This document shows, in pieces, positions 16,079 through 23,232 of a DNA stretch of 34,401 nt. The notes beneath the pieces were generated by a model that saw nothing but the letters and a program-made list of their open reading frames with translations, was not told the DNA's origin and made no database searches. The stretch covers positions 65,087 to 99,487 of the forward strand of contig REEN01000064.1 in assembly GCA_007695015.1 (NCBI GenBank), read 5' to 3'. The position numbers were made by a program, and so were the translations under genes. Positions within the stretch are counted from its first letter, which is position 1, and each line of letters begins with the position of its first letter. Origin of the DNA: Marinilabiliales bacterium (GTDB lineage Bacteria; Bacteroidota; Bacteroidia; Bacteroidales; PUMT01).

Positions 16079-17242
16079 ATGATACGAACCATAACCACCG
16101 AAAATATCCCCATCAAACTCTGGATTGACGATATTGAACCCGGTGCCATGGATCAGGCAAAGGACATTGCAAACCATCCCTATGCAGTTCACCATGTTGC
16201 AATAATGCCCGACTGCCACCAGGGTTTCGGCATGCCTATAGGCGGAGTTCTCGGGACAAGGGATGTTGTAATACCCAATGCCGTGGGAGTTGATATCGGA
16301 TGCGGAATGTGCGCAACGAGGACATCTCTCAGGGAGCTCTCGCGCGTCAGGCTTGCCGGTATTGCAGACGAAATAAGAAGAAACATACCTGTCGGTTTCA
16401 GACATCACAAATCAGCCCGCGACACCAGACTGATGCCTGGTCTAAAAGGGCGGCTGCCGGTAGTTGAAAGGGAGTACAAAAGTGCAACATATCAGCTTGG
16501 CACACTCGGGGGCGGGAACCATTTTATCGAGCTCCAGAAGGGATCAGACGGGTTTATCTGGATAATGATCCACTCGGGCAGCAGGAATATAGGAAAGCAG
16601 GTAGCGGATTACTATTACCGTAAGGCTGTAACTCTTAACGAGAAGAGCTTCAGAAACCTGAAAACCCCTAAGCAGCTCTCATTCCTGCCTCTTGATAGCG
16701 AAGAGGGAGACAAATACCTGAGTGAAATGGATTATTGCGTCAGGTTCGCATATGCCAACAGGAAGCAGATGATGGATGTGGTTTCATCGGTAGTGGCCGG
16801 CCATGCCGGCAGAGGAGTTGAATTCTCCCGGTTTATCAACATAGCCCACAACTATGCAAGCCGGGAAGAGCACTTTGGAATGCCCATGGTAATTCACCGT
16901 AAAGGTGCCACGTCAGCCCGTAAGGGTGAATACGGGATCGTGCCGGGCTCCCAGGGAAGTAACAGCTATATAACAATCGGGCGCGGCAACCCACAGAGTT
17001 TTGAAAGCTGTTCGCACGGGGCAGGCAGGGTGATGGGCAGGAAAGAGGCACAAAGGAAACTTGATCTGAACTTCGAAAGGGAAAAGCTTGAAAAGAAGGG
17101 AATAATCCACAGTATATACCGCACCAGAGACCTTGATGAAGCTTCAGGTGCCTACAAGGACATAAACCGGGTTATGAAGTTGCAGTCCGATCTGGTAGAG
17201 ATCGATACGGTACTTGAGCCTCTTGCAGTGGTCAAAGGGTAA
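16079..17242 (+). CDS. rtcB: RtcB family RNA-splicing/repair ligase
   Basis: A 387-residue member of the RtcB family, which joins RNA 2',3'-cyclic phosphate or 3'-phosphate ends to 5'-OH ends using GTP and manganese. Metal and active-site motifs are intact: MPDCHQGFG (43-51), VDIGCGM with Cys75, GGGNHFIE with His148, IHSGSRN with His165, INIAHNYA with His257 and the guanylylated histidine His313 in SCSHGAGR. It is somewhat shorter than E. coli RtcB. No RtcA, archease or release-factor-H gene is adjacent. Likely roles are tRNA or rRNA repair. It is separated from tRNA-His by a terminator and has its own promoter element. Confidence 0.92.
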   Translation: MIRTITTENIPIKLWIDDIEPGAMDQAKDIANHPYAVHHVAIMPDCHQGFGMPIGGVLGTRDVVIPNAVGVDIGCGMCATRTSLRELSRVRLAGIADEIRRNIPVGFRHHKSARDTRLMPGLKGRLPVVEREYKSATYQLGTLGGGNHFIELQKGSDGFIWIMIHSGSRNIGKQVADYYYRKAVTLNEKSFRNLKTPKQLSFLPLDSEEGDKYLSEMDYCVRFAYANRKQMMDVVSSVVAGHAGRGVEFSRFINIAHNYASREEHFGMPMVIHRKGATSARKGEYGIVPGSQGSNSYITIGRGNPQSFESCSHGAGRVMGRKEAQRKLDLNFEREKLEKKGIIHSIYRTRDLDEASGAYKDINRVMKLQSDLVEIDTVLEPLAVVKG

Positions 17243-17266: not shown

Positions 17267-18127
17267 CTAACCGAGATACATTCTGAGGAGTTTGTTCTTG
17301 GATTTATGACGAAGCCGCTTGAGCGCCTTCTCCTTTATCTGTCTTGTCCTTTCTTTGGTAAGTCCGAGTTCCTCTCCTATGGCCTCAAGAGACATCTCCT
17401 GCCTTCCAAGTCCGAAATAGCATTCAAGCACATTGCGCTCCTTTTCAGACAGAATACTTAGGGTGCGGGATATCTCCTTGCGAAGAGAATCTACCATCAG
17501 CTCAGAGTCGGCAATGGGGGAGTCCTTGTTCTCCATTACATCCAAAAGGCTGTTGTCCTCTCCGTCGACGAACGGGGCATCAAAGGACATCGGTCGTCCG
17601 TTGAGTTTAAGTGTTCCGGCAACTTTCTCCCTTGTCATTTCAAGTTTCTCTGCAAGTTCCTCATCAGAAGGATCACGCTCATTCTCCTGCTCGAAACGGG
17701 AGCTTATCTTGTGTATCTTGCCAAGTGAACCAACCTGGTTAAGGGGAAGCCTTACGACCCTTGCCTGCTCAGATATGGCCTGCAGTATGGACTGCCTGAT
17801 CCACCATACTGCATAGGAAATGAACTTGAAACCTTTTGTTTCGTCAAACTTGGTTGCTGCCTTAATAAGCCCAAGGTTACCTTCATTGATGAGGTCGGGC
17901 AGGCTCAACCCCTGGAACTGGTATTGCTTGGCGACCGAAACAACAAAACGCAGATTTGCCTTGACCATTTTCTCGAGCGCCACCTGGTCACCCTTTTTAA
18001 TCCTTTGGGCAAGTTCCACTTCCATTTCAGGTGAAATAAGATCCTCCTTGCCTATCTCCTGCAAATACTTCTCAATCGAGTTCGAATCACGGTTTGTGAT
18101 CGACTTTGTAATCTTTAATTGCCTCAT
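17267..18127 (-). CDS. rpoD: Primary sigma factor RpoD/SigA (Bacteroidota short form)
   Basis: A 286-residue housekeeping sigma factor that directs RNA polymerase to TAnnTTTG promoters. It starts directly with region 1.2 ([13 protein letters not shown]) and lacks region 1.1, as usual in this phylum. Region 2 (about 56-120) holds the core-binding and melting segments [13 protein letters not shown] and [13 protein letters not shown]; region 3 follows; and region 4 near the C-terminus has the helix-turn-helix [19 protein letters not shown]. The winged-helix gene ends 25 nt upstream on the same strand, with no clear promoter between them, so some rpoD transcription may come from the upstream racemase run. 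Confidence 0.96.
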
Positions 18128-18152
18128 ATCTTATTTTTTGTAAATTTCAAAA

Positions 18153-18440
18153 TCAGTCATCCTTGCTTAAAGAGATCAGCGTACTGTACCTCTCTTCATT
18201 CAAATTGAAATTGGGCGGATCGGTTTTCTTTTCGATCAATCCGAGAAGTTTCAGTTCCAGGATATGATTGGTGGCCGATTGCTGTGAAACACCCAGATCA
18301 CGGACTATGTCGCCGAAAGAAGAGGGACCTTTCCTTTTCAGCATTTCGAGTATTTCCATCTTCACCTTATCATTCAAAATTTCCCGGGACCTGATAACGG
18401 TCAACTTTTCAACAATATTGCCCCTGGTTTGTTCATGCAT
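18153..18440 (-). CDS. Small winged-helix transcription regulator (ArsR-like)
   Basis: A 95-residue protein that is essentially one winged helix-turn-helix domain: ILNDKVKMEILEML as the first helix, SFGDIVRDLG and SQQSATNHILELK as the HTH, and GLIEKK leading to the wing. It lacks the metal-binding cysteines of classical ArsR sensors. It lies 15 nt after the ornithine/alanine racemase-like gene and 25 nt before rpoD. The obvious guess is a local regulator of the racemase genes; binding targets are unknown. Confidence 0.75.
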   Translation of the reverse strand: MHEQTRGNIVEKLTVIRSREILNDKVKMEILEMLKRKGPSSFGDIVRDLGVSQQSATNHILELKLLGLIEKKTDPPNFNLNEERYSTLISLSKDD

Positions 18441-18455
18441 ACCAACATTTTTTTG

Positions 18456-19526
18456 TTAGACAATCTTTTTATCAATATAATTTGAATTCATTATATGCAA
18501 AGTACCCATATAGTTCAATTTGAGTTCAATTGTATCACCTACCCTGTACTTTGGTTTCCTGGTGCCAAGGTCAACGACTATCATATCTGACGTTGCCCCT
18601 GATATCTTTATCTTTTTGTCAGCAGGCTCAATATAATCAACACTTATATCCAGTATCCCGATATCCAGGATTGCCCGGTATGTTGTTTTTCCAAGTTCGC
18701 TGTCGTCAAACTCCGGAGTGTCGCCGGTAAGATTGGTGCCTATTTCTCCCACAGGCACGATCGGTTTTTCAGTCAGTTCTATGATCTCTGCATGAAGTTT
18801 GAATATTCCATTCCTCATTCCCTTAATAAGCTTGCCGGTAAAAAGGTCCTTGCCGAAAAAAAGGCTCTCCCCCACCCTGAAATGATCAACCGTGACCGGC
18901 AGGATACGCTTTACAAGCAATGGTATCGTGACTGAAGATCCACCTGAAACATAAGGGATCTTTTTCCCGAATTTTGCTTCGATCAGCTGCTTGTAAAGCC
19001 CCAGCTGTATAAGTTTATCCTGACTGGGCATGATCCCGTAAAGGCAGTTCAGATTAGTCCCGATACCAATAACCTCGATATTGGGAAGGTTAAAAATACT
19101 GCCGTAGAAATCAACCAACTGGTCTCCCAAAACACCTTCCCGAAGATCTCCCATTTCGATCATAATTATGATCTTATGCACCGTTCCCTGCCTTGTGGCC
19201 TCCTCATTCAAGAGCTTTATGGTATAAAGCTCGGTGTTCAGGCTGATATCGGCATACTTCACGACCGACCTTATTGCCCGTTTGGCCGGGGGTTTGATAT
19301 ATACCGTCTCAACTTCCGGCGCCAGACTCTTAATAGTCTTCAGATTGCTGACCCTGGAGTCGCACAATTGCTTTGCGCCCAGACCTATCACCTCTTTCAG
19401 GTAGGTCCTGTTGCCGCATAACAGTTTTGTAACGATGCCCCATTCAATATTATTATCCCTGAACAGTCCTTCCAGATAGTTGTAGTTATGTTGAAGCACC
19501 TCCCTGCGGAGTTCCATAAATGCCAT
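18456..19526 (-). CDS. Ornithine/alanine racemase family PLP enzyme (fold type III)
   Basis: A 356-residue protein of the Orr/YhfX group, which shares the alanine racemase N-terminal TIM barrel. Lys34 in GIVTKLLCGN is the probable PLP lysine. Supporting segments are DSRVSNLKTIK, EMGDLREGV, GIGTNLNCLYG and PYVSGGSS, the last a phosphate-binding-like loop. Known members include clostridial ornithine racemase, but the substrate cannot be read here, and the other ornithine-fermentation genes are not in the window. The ATG at 19526 is 11 nt after the Alr-like stop; a second ATG at 19517 is possible. It follows an Alr-like gene, so two PLP racemase-type proteins are made together. Confidence 0.85.
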   Translation of the reverse strand: MAFMELRREVLQHNYNYLEGLFRDNNIEWGIVTKLLCGNRTYLKEVIGLGAKQLCDSRVSNLKTIKSLAPEVETVYIKPPAKRAIRSVVKYADISLNTELYTIKLLNEEATRQGTVHKIIIMIEMGDLREGVLGDQLVDFYGSIFNLPNIEVIGIGTNLNCLYGIMPSQDKLIQLGLYKQLIEAKFGKKIPYVSGGSSVTIPLLVKRILPVTVDHFRVGESLFFGKDLFTGKLIKGMRNGIFKLHAEIIELTEKPIVPVGEIGTNLTGDTPEFDDSELGKTTYRAILDIGILDISVDYIEPADKKIKISGATSDMIVVDLGTRKPKYRVGDTIELKLNYMGTLHIMNSNYIDKKIV

Positions 19527-19537
19527 ACTATGGTATT

Positions 19538-20689
19538 TTAGTTTACAATAAATCTGGGAATAGCTTCCGGCAACCTGGTAAGCAATTCATAGTTAAGCTG
19601 GTTACTGAATTCACTGAACGAAGCAACTGAAATAGTCAGGTCGCCCTGACTTCCTATAAGCACAACCTCATCACCGGTTTTTACATCCGGCAGCTGGGTT
19701 ACATCGGCAATCAGCATGTTCATATTTACCAGCCCAATCACACCAACGCGCTGACTGTTTATCAAAACACGCCCCTGATTACTCAGCGACCGGTTGTAAC
19801 CGTGAGAATAACCCACGGGAATCACTGCAATCTTCTTGTCCTCCTGTGCCAGGTATATTGTCCCGTAACTGACGAACTCGCCCCTTTTAACCTTTTGGAT
19901 GCTCATTATCCTGCTTTTCCAGCTAATAACACGGTTCAGCGGGTCTTCCTTGTCCTTCCTTCTTCCAATATACTGGATAAACGTTTCCGCACTGGGCCAG
20001 TATCCGTATTGCAGAATTCCCATCCGCACCATGTCAAACCTTGCTGAAGGATATGTCAGGGCGGCAGCCGAGCTGGCTACATGCCGGTATTCGGGCACAA
20101 GGCCACGTTCTGCAAACCACTTGCAAATTCTTGTGAACCGGGATATCTGTTTCTGAATTCTGACATGGTTTGCTATGCTCTCGGCTCCGGCAAGATGTGT
20201 GCAAATACCCTTCAGCTCAAAGGAGCGCCGCTCACCTGATATTATCTCTGCTGCCTTCCTAAGCTCACTCTGCTTCATTCCTGTCCGGTTCATGCCGGTC
20301 TCCGTCTCCAGGTGCACAAGTGCCGGGTTACCGGTGCGTTCATTTAATTCCACAACCTTTTTCAGCCGGTAAAGATCGAAAACAAAAAACTCCACCTCGT
20401 TTCTTACGGCCCATTCAATATCATTATCATCAAGCCATCCCATGATCATGATCCTTGAACCGGGACTTGTGATCTTTTTGAGTCTTTTTGCCTCACATGC
20501 GCTGAATACAGAAAAGTGATCAATCCCTGTTCCCTCTGCCACCGGGACATATTGCTCCATTCCGTGTCCATAGGCATTTGACTTCACTACCGAGGTAATC
20601 TGTACCTTATCGCCAAGATGATGGCGCAAAAACCCGATATTGCCCTCAACAGCTTTTCTGCTTATCTCAATAATTGATGTATCAGCCAT
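19538..20689 (-). CDS. Alanine racemase-like PLP enzyme
   Basis: A 383-residue fold-type III racemase. The PLP lysine Lys36 is in VVKSNAYGHG, Arg135 is in TGMNRTG, and the second catalytic base Tyr279 is in SYGTIYLAQ. In the C-terminal domain, the usual VCMDQ-type motif reads VNMNM (321-325), so both the Cys and the Asp positions are Asn. That region shapes the substrate pocket in Alr, so specificity may differ from alanine. Many Bacteroidales carry Alr fused to MurF for cell-wall synthesis, which makes a second, non-peptidoglycan role here plausible. The start is 4 nt after the M20 stop, and the next racemase follows after 11 nt. Confidence 0.88.
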   Translation of the reverse strand: MADTSIIEISRKAVEGNIGFLRHHLGDKVQITSVVKSNAYGHGMEQYVPVAEGTGIDHFSVFSACEAKRLKKITSPGSRIMIMGWLDDNDIEWAVRNEVEFFVFDLYRLKKVVELNERTGNPALVHLETETGMNRTGMKQSELRKAAEIISGERRSFELKGICTHLAGAESIANHVRIQKQISRFTRICKWFAERGLVPEYRHVASSAAALTYPSARFDMVRMGILQYGYWPSAETFIQYIGRRKDKEDPLNRVISWKSRIMSIQKVKRGEFVSYGTIYLAQEDKKIAVIPVGYSHGYNRSLSNQGRVLINSQRVGVIGLVNMNMLIADVTQLPDVKTGDEVVLIGSQGDLTISVASFSEFSNQLNYELLTRLPEAIPRFIVN

Positions 20690-20693
20690 CTCT

Positions 20694-21836
20694 TTATCCT
20701 AAAATCTTTAATGACATCCTGGTAAGCATATTAATACCAGCTGATGTTATATCGTCAGGAAAATCATAGTCCGGGTTATGCAGCTCGGGGTGCCCCTTCC
20801 CGGCACCAATCCCGAAAAGCAGACCACGGGTCTTCCTGGTAAACCAGCCAAAATCCTCCGACCATCTGAAGGCATCCCCGGGGTCACAAACTTCAAGTGA
20901 CAGCTCCTTTGCTGTGTCTGAAGCCATTTGTGCCAGGCCCGGATCATTAACCGTAGCCGGAAATCTCTCCGTAAAGCTTACTGAACACTTCAAGCCCTCT
21001 TCACCGGCAATACTTTGGGCAAGCTGAACCGCCCTGCCGGAAAGTTCCTCCATCTCATTATCGGCACATGCCCGGAGAGTTGCCATGACCAGGGCATGAC
21101 CCGGACTTGTACCGAAAGCAACCTCACCAAGTCTTGCATGTATTACCGTTACCAGTGCAAAGCTTTTAAAGATATCTGATCCGGCTATTCCCGGCAGTAC
21201 CTCCAACAAACGCGACACCGCCCTGGCGGGACTTAATCCGTTTTCAGGTTCAGCCGCATGCGATGTTTTGCCCTCAAGCCTTATAATAATGCCTTCAGAT
21301 GCCATTGCAAACACATCCGGCCTGACGATAACACTATTTTTTTTGTACCCCGGAAGATTATGCATCGCTATGGCAAAATCGGGCATCAGCCTCTCAAACC
21401 GCGGATCACCCAGTACTGCCTCAGCACCTTTACCGTTCTCTTCCGAGGGTTGAAAAAGGACTACCACCTCTCCCTTTTCAGGTCTTTCAGAGGCAAAAAA
21501 CTTTGCCACACCTGCAGCAACCGCCATATGTCCGTCATGCCCGCAGGCATGAGATACTCCGGTGTTAACAGACCTGTAATCAAAATTATTCATTTCGGTA
21601 ACCGGTAAGGCATCAAGCTCAGCCCTGATGAGCAACCTCCTGCCATGACTGTCACCGCTGAACCTTGCTGCGACCCCGTAACCACCAATACCACAAACAA
21701 TCTCATCAGGCTGCAACTCTTCCAGAAAGCGAATAATCCTTCGTGATGTGACCTTTTCATTACCTGACAATTCGGGATATTTATGCAGCTCTTTCCGTAA
21801 ATTGACAATTAACTCCAGGTCTGATATTTCGGGCAT
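20694..21836 (-). CDS. M20 family metal-dependent amidohydrolase
   Basis: A 380-residue protein of the M20D group (HipO/AbgB-like), which removes acyl or aminoacyl groups from amino acids. The metal-site motif HACGHDGH holds Cys98 and His100, FQPSEENGKGA holds Glu132/Glu133, AMHNLPG holds His159, and the C-terminal ELHNPDYDFPD supplies the last histidine. A dimerisation lid domain occupies the middle (about 180-295). Substrates in the family include N-acetylated and N-benzoylated amino acids. Position between an acetyltransferase and two racemases suggests N-acyl amino acid handling. It is 20 nt after the GNAT stop and 4 nt before the Alr-like gene. Confidence 0.9.
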   Translation of the reverse strand: MPEISDLELIVNLRKELHKYPELSGNEKVTSRRIIRFLEELQPDEIVCGIGGYGVAARFSGDSHGRRLLIRAELDALPVTEMNNFDYRSVNTGVSHACGHDGHMAVAAGVAKFFASERPEKGEVVVLFQPSEENGKGAEAVLGDPRFERLMPDFAIAMHNLPGYKKNSVIVRPDVFAMASEGIIIRLEGKTSHAAEPENGLSPARAVSRLLEVLPGIAGSDIFKSFALVTVIHARLGEVAFGTSPGHALVMATLRACADNEMEELSGRAVQLAQSIAGEEGLKCSVSFTERFPATVNDPGLAQMASDTAKELSLEVCDPGDAFRWSEDFGWFTRKTRGLLFGIGAGKGHPELHNPDYDFPDDITSAGINMLTRMSLKILG

Positions 21837-21856
21837 AAATCGTTTAAGTGGGTAAA

Positions 21857-22303
21857 TTACTTCTTTTTGGACAGCCTCATTTCCATGTACTTGTTGGTAA
21901 AGCCAAGCTTCTCGTACAGGAACCTTGCAGGATTATCATGCTCCACATGAAGCTTGACATCGCCTTCTGCAAGATCTATGGCTTTGATCATGAGTTCCTT
22001 GCCATACCCTTTCCCTCTGAACTTCTGGTCAACTGCAATATATACCAGTATGTTTTCGGGAATATATCCCTCCATACCTGTCTTGTTGATCACCACCACA
22101 CCTACAATATCATCATCGACTTTACCCTGAAGCACAAAACCGCCCGGACCGGGAATCTCGCTCATCGCGTAGGCAGTGGCCCTGCCAATGGCCTCTTTGG
22201 TGTCGCGAAACTGGTCAAGATGTGTATGAAGAAAATCAATAATCTCTGTTCTCTCTCCGTCGCTAATCGGATTGGATGAATTGAAAATTTTGAATCGTAA
22301 CAT
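21857..22303 (-). CDS. GNAT family N-acetyltransferase
   Basis: A 148-residue GNAT protein. The acetyl-CoA pyrophosphate loop RGKGYGKEL (about 115-123) follows the strand ILVYIAVDQKF, and the closing HDNPARFLYEKLGF segment is typical of motif B. The acceptor is unknown. It is the first gene of a minus-strand run with a very good promoter upstream, so it and the M20, Alr-like and Orr-like genes are probably one transcript. An N-acetyltransferase and an amidohydrolase in one operon could act on the same amino acid, but this is inference. Confidence 0.85.
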   Translation of the reverse strand: MLRFKIFNSSNPISDGERTEIIDFLHTHLDQFRDTKEAIGRATAYAMSEIPGPGGFVLQGKVDDDIVGVVVINKTGMEGYIPENILVYIAVDQKFRGKGYGKELMIKAIDLAEGDVKLHVEHDNPARFLYEKLGFTNKYMEMRLSKKK

Positions 22304-22336: not shown

Positions 22337-22368
22337 CAAAAATACGAAAAATCGGGGAGAGATGCAAA
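22337..22368 (-). promoter_or_regulatory. Strong Bacteroidota promoter for the GNAT-M20-racemase run
   Basis: On the minus strand TTTG (22368..22365), 20 nt, then TATTTTTG (22344..22337). Both elements and spacing match consensus. The expected start is near 22331, giving a leader of about 28 nt before the GNAT ATG. Confidence 0.8.
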
Positions 22369-22415: not shown

Positions 22416-22543
22416 GGTTGCAACCCTTTACTGCTATATATGTGATATATACGGGAGACACAACCGTGAAATACACGCATTCACAGATATAACCTTTCAA
22501 TACAACGTTGCAAGAACAGGAATATATTAGTTTCTATAGAAAC
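22416..22543. repeat. Palindrome-rich spacer between marR and the GNAT run
   Basis: The non-coding stretch 22304-22725 (422 bp) holds the promoter at 22337-22368 and several palindromes: GGTTGCAACC (22416-22425), TATATAT-GTG-ATATATA (22435-22451), CAACGTTG (22503-22510) and a perfect 14-bp GTTTCTATAGAAAC (22530-22543). The rest, 22544-22725, shows only a weak hairpin and no gene. These look like protein-binding sites, and the neighbouring MarR protein is one candidate binder, but no second copy of any site was found to link them. Confidence 0.45.
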
Positions 22544-22725: not shown

Positions 22726-23232
22726 TTATTTCTGTCCGGTAACTATCTCATCTTCGAAGGTAATGACCGGACTTGCATCTATGCTCTGGATATCAAGGTA
22801 GTCGATCAGCAGGTCAAGTGCATTGTTGATGGTTTGCGCATCGCCGGGTGACACAGTCCTCAGATTCTCCGACAGGCGCTCATGCAAAAGCGGGGGTATC
22901 GAATCAAGGAGGTCTGAGGACTTTGAAGTTAGCACAATTGTAGTTTTCCTTTTATCATCCTTTTTCGGAAGTCTTGCAATAAGTCCCCTGCTCTCCAACC
23001 GGTTAATTATACCGGTAACGGTGCTGGGATTAAGGTTGAGGAAACTGCATATATCCTTCTGGGTAGACCTGAAATCGGGAGAATTCCTGAGGAAGTTGAG
23101 ACACAGCACCTGGGGGATGCTCACCCCGTGTTCCCTGAGTATCTTTTTGGATTCCAGATTAATGGAACGAACTATCTTCCTTATCTTGATCAGGATATCT
23201 GTATTATCCACTTCTTCCGTGCTTGGTTGCAC
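22726..23232 (-). CDS. MarR family transcriptional regulator
   Basis: A 168-residue winged-helix regulator. The MarR core is clear: STQKDICSFLNLNPSTVTG, then IINRLESRGLIARLP and the basic wing KKDDKRKTTIVLT at about residues 56-102, flanked by dimerisation helices. A C-terminal extension of about 20 residues follows. The frame has no ATG: a TAG stop lies just upstream and GTG at 23232 is the first possible start. It begins about 25 nt after the terminator of the receptor operon, so it is a separate unit. The target could be the palindromes downstream at 22416-22543, but this is not shown. Confidence 0.88.
   Translation of the reverse strand: MQPSTEEVDNTDILIKIRKIVRSINLESKKILREHGVSIPQVLCLNFLRNSPDFRSTQKDICSFLNLNPSTVTGIINRLESRGLIARLPKKDDKRKTTIVLTSKSSDLLDSIPPLLHERLSENLRTVSPGDAQTINNALDLLIDYLDIQSIDASPVITFEDEIVTGQK

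Follow-up and report, generated by a model that had tools for sequence, protein, structure and literature searches.

An acetyltransferase gene and a deacylase gene share the yxe operon of Bacillus subtilis, which we take to bring together a GNAT protein, YxeL, and an M20 deacetylase, YxeP, and which to our knowledge contains no racemases. Racemase genes keep other company. According to excerpts of PMC8803604, the pathway partners of ornithine racemase (Orr; curated model NF040742) in oxidative ornithine degradation by clostridia are encoded by oraSE, ord and ortAB; ornithine racemase is also mentioned in an excerpt of PMC12838360. In the DgcN-DgcA route for D-glutamate, an N-acetyltransferase gene stands beside a racemase-type gene (excerpts of PMC12363236 and PMC10845958), a precedent for such neighbours that we extend here by analogy. 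In a 34,401-nt stretch of the genome of a Marinilabiliales bacterium (contig REEN01000064.1, positions 65,087 to 99,487; hereafter the window), a run of genes, hereafter the cassette, joins a GNAT acetyltransferase and an M20 amidohydrolase to two pyridoxal 5'-phosphate (PLP) racemase-type enzymes, one Alr-like and one Orr-like. This operon type of familiar enzymes is real and recurring, and apparently undescribed: no published account of the gene set or of its GNAT-Orr pair was found in a search that covered few subscription papers, in line with a first-pass annotation of the window that had not recognized a described pathway.

That annotation had also proposed six minus-strand genes starting at a consensus promoter. 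The six open reading frames, their gaps (20, 4, 11, 15 and 25 nt from the GNAT to the sigma end) and the promoter match were all recovered, and Pfam and NCBIfam models gave the same families for all six proteins, the Orr-like one scoring under its curated cut-off. A MarR-family gene upstream of the GNAT gene, which had not been counted among the members, is likely to belong to the set. The features are as follows:

22726..23232, minus strand: MarR-family regulator, likely the cassette regulator (Pfam MarR, E 7.8e-14)
22530..22543, no strand assigned: palindrome GTTTCTATAGAAAC (GTTTCTNNAGAAAC type), candidate MarR operator between the MarR gene and the cassette
22337..22368, minus strand: promoter TTTG-N20-TATTTTTG, an exact match to TTTG-N20-TAnnTTTG, which we take to be the Bacteroidetes consensus
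21857..22303, minus strand: GNAT acetyltransferase, 148 amino acids (PF00583)
20694..21836, minus strand: M20 amidohydrolase, 380 amino acids (PF01546, TIGR01891)
19538..20689, minus strand: Alr-like PLP racemase with a non-canonical active site, 383 amino acids (PF01168 and PF00842, TIGR00492)
18456..19526, minus strand: Orr-like (ornithine-racemase-like) PLP enzyme, 356 amino acids (NF040742, score under cut-off)
18153..18440, minus strand: small winged-helix protein, 95 amino acids (HTH_20/MarR_2)
17267..18127, minus strand: RpoD-family sigma paralog, 286 amino acids (sigma-70 regions 1.2-4)

The cassette recurs across Bacteroidota. Of 295 genomes sampled from the order, 65 had Orr-like genes, the window's own counted, and the remaining 67 Orr loci were retrieved; in a sample of the phylum, 66 of 395 genomes had a match at an E value of 0.001, again with the window's own counted and the weakest three doubtful. 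A scan of named genomes supplied the best 80 of 310 relatives, a choice that favours close relatives, and several loci of the order sample lie on the same contigs as named loci (L149/L045, L152/L050, L157/L062). To label neighbours, tblastn was run with queries from the window, L002, L003, L051, L096, L108 and L202-L205, and genes were joined when on the same strand and at most 700 nt apart; unrelated replacements and losses at contig ends are invisible to this labelling. Loci in which Orr starts less than 450 nt from a contig edge with nothing recognized upstream were left unscored. Conservation of gene order, the check that the first-pass annotation had called for, was apparent: a GNAT gene preceded Orr in 42 of 46 scored order loci of the close Orr class, in all 14 scored loci of the class with 43-48% identity, and in 70 of 78 scored named loci. 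The bare GNAT-Orr pair accounted for about half of the order loci (34/67), some of them at contig ends. The longer form SSS-GNAT-M20-Alr-Orr, in which the first gene encodes an SSS-family symporter, was found in 24 of the 80 named loci and was headed by MarR in 9 of the 80; with or without MarR, it occurs in Flavobacterium, Fulvivirga and Bacteroidales. GNAT and Orr distances were correlated (0.84 over 116 loci), as could come from shared ancestry alone.

We propose, with a probability of about 0.5, that the genes form one operon for the conversion of D- and N-acyl amino acids, with GNAT and Orr as its core and with MarR control in some lineages. Its commonest form in Bacteroidota would be the GNAT and the Orr-like racemase, to which many lineages would add an SSS symporter, an M20 deacylase and a specialized Alr. 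The symporter, in the window's genome an unlinked homolog, would import compounds and M20 would liberate N-acylated amino acids; each racemase would interconvert the enantiomers of its own amino acid, that of Orr being probably basic, and GNAT would acetylate one product, thereby pulling the reversible racemization. Acetylation cannot directly precede racemization of the same molecule, since PLP racemases need a free amine. Peptidoglycan would be a possible source of D-amino acids, and in some lineages an upstream MarR protein would control the operon through the GTTTCTNNAGAAAC operator. The pathway on D- or N-acyl amino acids envisaged in the first-pass annotation is retained in part: the repeated association of GNAT, M20, Alr and Orr genes in Bacteroidota fits it, with acetylation, deacylation and two racemizations as a conjectural order. 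Its winged-helix regulator and its tie to the housekeeping sigma factor fell away, as described below. If borne out, the GNAT-Orr pair gives a testable function, together with a candidate operator, to proteins annotated by superfamily only.

The window itself has no linked symporter. Its genome encodes an SSS homolog, 71% identical, at an unlinked site (contig C63, 18611-20017); no palindrome with at most one mismatch was present in the 14 kb around that gene. The matches of the symporter to the PutP and PanF models are below cut-off.

The GNAT model (predicted local distance difference test, pLDDT, 92.9) gave PH1933 as its best Foldseek match and resembled generic acetyltransferases; the GNAT comparisons yielded no substrate hint. 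The best PDB sequence match of the window's M20 is YxeP (1ysj), and the presumed metal-ligand residues are retained in 62-63 of 63 cassette M20 proteins. In a different reading, the operon makes an N-acetylated (D-)diamino acid, such as acetyl-ornithine or acetyl-lysine, that serves as a compatible solute or is excreted: Orr would supply the isomer, GNAT would cap it, and M20 and the symporter would recycle it. Acetylated diamino acids are osmolytes, the commonest unit is an acetyltransferase and a racemase without a nearby deacylase (the bare pairs above), and the nearest relatives of the window are CSSed and T-Sed sediment metagenome-assembled genomes, which we take to be soda-lake samples. 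The cassette is, however, also carried by many Flavobacterium species, presumably from non-saline habitats, and GNAT gives no pointer to such a substrate. We regard the N-acetylated product as rather unlikely.

The cassette Alr passes TIGR00492 (297 bits versus a cut-off of 168), yet its active site departs from that of a canonical Alr. With residues in Geobacillus stearothermophilus numbering and placed by motif, the equivalents of Lys39, Arg136, Tyr265 and Tyr354 were retained in 80 of 80 proteins, and that of Tyr284 was retained as well. The Asp313 site was Asn in all 80, and the Lys129 site was Glu in 73, Asp in 6 and Asn in 1; the residue after Arg136 was Thr in 76, Ser in 3 and Asp in 1. 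An Asp313 equivalent (Met-Asp) is present in 5irp, B. subtilis alanine racemase 2, and in the second Alr of the window's genome, a MurF-Alr fusion (an 822-amino-acid frame on contig C55) that presumably serves the cell wall. Lysine and broad-specificity racemases, according to excerpts of PMC3485190, lack Lys129, have Asn after Arg136 and have lost Tyr354 to a small residue. The cassette Alr shares with these enzymes (Lyr, Bar, BsrV) the Alr fold and the absence of Lys129, and the lysine racemase 4dza, read by eye, seemingly has Met-Asn at the place where Asn replaces Asp313 in the cassette Alr. Unlike them, it keeps Tyr354 in 80 of 80 proteins and mostly has Thr after Arg136. One comparison tells against giving weight to Lys129: 5irp, the best PDB match of the cassette Alr, has Asn at that site. 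As this alanine racemase also lacks Lys129, the loss is undiagnostic alone, a weak criterion, and Asn at position 313 is therefore the clearest mark of the cassette Alr. Judged by these residues, the protein fits neither the canonical nor the lysine/broad-specificity type fully, and appears to form a distinct subfamily that current models would call 'alanine racemase'.

The Orr-like protein resembles clostridial Orr in its Alr-type fold and its presumed PLP lysine (Lys34, invariant in 42 aligned proteins), and NF040742 is its best curated model. Its model structure (pLDDT 92.6) matched alanine and lysine racemases in Foldseek (5yyc, 4dza); a PDB sequence search with the single protein gave no match, and the Orr profile matched only the lysine racemase 4dza, weakly. 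It differs from clostridial Orr in scoring 316 bits against the NF040742 cut-off of 480 and in its partners, which are GNAT, M20, Alr, SSS and MarR. The cassette might nevertheless be a remnant of ornithine fermentation in which Orr supplies an aminomutase route with D-ornithine, as happens in clostridia; ornithine racemase is indeed the closest curated model. The sub-threshold score speaks against this, as do the neighbours: no genes of that pathway were recognized by eye among the printed ones, in agreement with the first-pass annotation. OraS and lysine-aminomutase models had zero matches in the genome, and likewise none in control genomes. We consider such a remnant very improbable.

The most distant Orr class (34-39% identity) had the cassette GNAT upstream in none of five loci. 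A DgcN-like DUF1611 gene stood before Orr in four and a different GNAT, identified by Pfam, in the fifth. The window and the DgcN-DgcA route are thus alike in placing an acetyltransferase beside a racemase; they differ in that the window has GNAT in place of DgcN, and PLP racemases. The DgcN-like match in L202 scored 158 bits against a cut-off of 480. In L204, a saccharopine-dehydrogenase-like gene (3-1337) immediately precedes the DgcN-like gene and the Orr-like gene, a hint that this locus may serve the metabolism of lysine or ornithine.

Wall peptidase genes were recognized near 10 of 147 loci. M23 was found in seven, namely L197, L205 and L206 and, on the opposite strand, L051, L063, L066 and L068; M15 was found in three (L201, fused, L202 and L203). 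These neighbours in relatives suggest peptidoglycan-derived substrates, which by extension might also serve the window's enzymes. In two loci, L205 and L206, GNAT-Orr-M23-Alr forms a single run in which both racemases stand beside a wall peptidase, and L197 carries Orr-M23-Alr. At L201:2410-4149, behind a DgcN-like DUF1611 gene, an Orr-like racemase is fused to a D-Ala-D-Ala dipeptidase (M15/VanY) in a protein of 579 amino acids; unfused DgcN-Orr-M15 trios occur in L202 and L203.

Regulation was approached through the upstream region. MarR homologs, 33-94% identical, are found upstream of the cassette in several lineages. The palindrome at 22530-22543 is the sole exact GTTTCTNNAGAAAC match in the genome; a reversed-pattern control also gave about one, and what matters is therefore its position and not its rarity. 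The pattern was first noticed in loci of the window's lineage (window, L039, L044, L148) and then tested in others. Between MarR and the first cassette gene, it occurred with at most one mismatch in 13 of 23 MarR-bearing loci, a count from which, alone among ours, the duplicates L152 and L157 were dropped; outside the three discovery loci (L039, L044, L148), the figure was 10 of 20, five of them near relatives. Its density was 13 sites in 7,448 bases of MarR-cassette intervals versus 5 in 333,957 in the remainder of the loci. Fulvivirga-type loci (L051, L052, L056, L061, L066) have it 24-29 nt ahead of where the symporter match begins, and exact copies stand 35 nt (L098) and 78 nt (L178) upstream of the first recognized gene in loci where MarR was undetected. 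Where a MarR gene adjoins the cassette, recurring adjacency and a palindromic site thus coincide, and the upstream MarR is, on these patterns, the likelier cassette regulator, predicted to bind the palindrome. The winged-helix protein, which the first-pass annotation had cast as regulator, was rejected as the pathway's main one: it was found only in the window's lineage, whereas the MarR palindrome recurs in several.

The promoter pattern had two matches in the window versus 0.80 expected, and 17 of 100 shuffles reached two; taken alone and within the window, the match is weak. A match lies at most 440 nt upstream of GNAT in all 12 relatives examined. The scan of the window found no other exact match inside the six genes. 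A near-consensus second promoter just 3' of the palindrome, read by eye, was not evident in aligned relatives.

Several observations weigh against the proposed operon and its control by MarR. M20, Alr and SSS genes were near only 13, 15 and 10, respectively, of the 46 scored close-Orr order loci, so the core must be able to do without the long pathway. The substrates of all four enzymes are predictions from sequence, and those of the acetyltransferase and the deacylase may be separate. Wall peptidases are near few loci, and none was recognized in the window. MarR is adjacent in just 25 of 124 scored close-Orr loci (8/46 in the order sample, 17/78 among named loci), and its control therefore cannot be general. 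The palindrome is absent from 10 of the 23 MarR loci, the five near relatives among the positive loci are those of Fulvivirga type, and L048, L084 and L107 have exact copies elsewhere than at the cassette start. Finally, about 160 nt separate the window's palindrome from the conserved promoter downstream of it, an odd placement for simple repression.

The 3' end of the run carries a sigma gene. Bacteroidetes have an unusual primary sigma factor, and one flavobacterium has one primary sigma factor, one sigma-54 and seven extracytoplasmic function sigma factors, according to excerpts of PMC9723704. The first-pass annotation had taken the sigma factor linked to the cassette for the housekeeping one. 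Three RpoD-like proteins are encoded in the window's genome (3.4 Mb in 118 contigs, 98.5% complete), and their mean identities to 26 other Bacteroidales copies were 84.8% for the copy on contig C27, 71.5% for the window's and 65.4% for that on C67; this comparison was made without L130, L144 and L078, all three of which are in the quick tree. Three trees united the window's sigma with copies from its own lineage, with full support, and placed the C27 copy among the housekeeping copies of other Bacteroidales. The window's protein, of 286 amino acids, has sigma regions 1.2 to 4 like a housekeeping RpoD. By copy number, identities and trees, the orthologue of the conserved primary sigma is nevertheless the C27 gene and the window's copy is a diverged paralog; the link of the cassette is to that paralog, and its assignment as housekeeping rpoD was rejected. 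Two genomes of the same genus, G150 and G244, also have three RpoD-like copies each, and 40 of the 60 genomes sampled from the order had at least two RpoD-type matches at an E value of 1e-80, so that additional copies are in themselves nothing unusual. The C67 sigma (G000:C67:64776-65633, L003) is 60% identical to the window's and belongs to a paralog clade that spans several Bacteroidales families.

The window-type sigma lies behind Orr in 13 of 13 distinct contigs of relatives, comprising L148, L150 and L039-L049, the last being the 11 named loci whose Orr shares at least 72% identity with that of the window; in the other 68 scored named loci, such a tail was never found (0/68). The winged helix-turn-helix gene stands between Orr and sigma in 12 of the 13 and was undetected in L043, and the spacing before sigma is short in most (528 nt in L043). 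In the proposed reading, the winged-helix gene and the diverged RpoD paralog joined the 3' end of the operon in the window's lineage and are probably co-transcribed with it. They may well be passengers, a duplicated rpoD having landed once behind the operon, where it is read through and has nothing to do with amino acid chemistry. The window's sigma clade is found in the cassette of one lineage only, the winged helix was undetected in L043, and extra RpoD-type sigma genes are common in the order. The retention of sigma in every one of the 13 relatives, with short spacing in most, argues against passengers, as does another RpoD-type sigma within the same cassette elsewhere: in L078, L096 and, from the order sample, L153, a sigma 52-57% identical to the window's lies between GNAT and M20. 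Weighing these, we give passengers somewhat less than an even chance.

The same retention and the same second sigma would fit a functional alternative sigma that switches the racemase operon along with other genes, by growth phase or stress, with the winged helix as its partner. A small winged-helix match lies behind Orr in L078 and L096, which carry that second sigma, as well as in L108 and, farther off, in L079. The window clade (9 rows) also differs from 29 housekeeping rows, a chosen subset of the quick-tree sequences, at 26 fixed positions, 8 of them in region 4 (R258K and V261T included). Other data point the opposite way. Where extra RpoD-type sigma genes are so common, the arrival of one next to an operon is less remarkable; an 18-residue stretch is identical between the clade and the housekeeping rows, and the promoter of the cassette conforms to the usual consensus. 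In L078, the winged-helix frame is only 42 amino acids long and perhaps broken. The quick tree placed sigma factors of G037, G042 and G043 beside the window clade (97 by SH-aLRT, the Shimodaira-Hasegawa-like approximate likelihood ratio test), with long branches flagged, and another tree joined just G037 and G043 to it (93/78); the careful tree did not recover this grouping, and in the order-sample search none of the three genomes had an Orr match. We hold a functional switch to be unlikely.

The two cassette sigma groups stood apart in the trees, but a joint clade was not rejected by the approximately unbiased (AU) test (p 0.205); we therefore do not claim two independent recruitments. Doubtful in our view is the bolder proposal of a D-amino-acid operon with its own RpoD-type alternative sigma and winged-helix partner, which would wire the production or recycling of D-amino acids to a global transcription switch in Bacteroidota, in an arrangement that perhaps arose at least twice; two different sigma groups at two positions of the same cassette may reflect such repeated wiring. 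RpoD-type paralogs do occur inside the cassette in more than one lineage, and the association of an RpoD clade with an amino acid operon is relevant to how alternative sigma control might be built in a phylum with an unusual primary sigma.

Beyond the cassette, a gene for an RtcB-family RNA ligase (window 16079-17242) converges on the sigma gene across a 24-nt gap, and this convergent arrangement is retained in several relatives.

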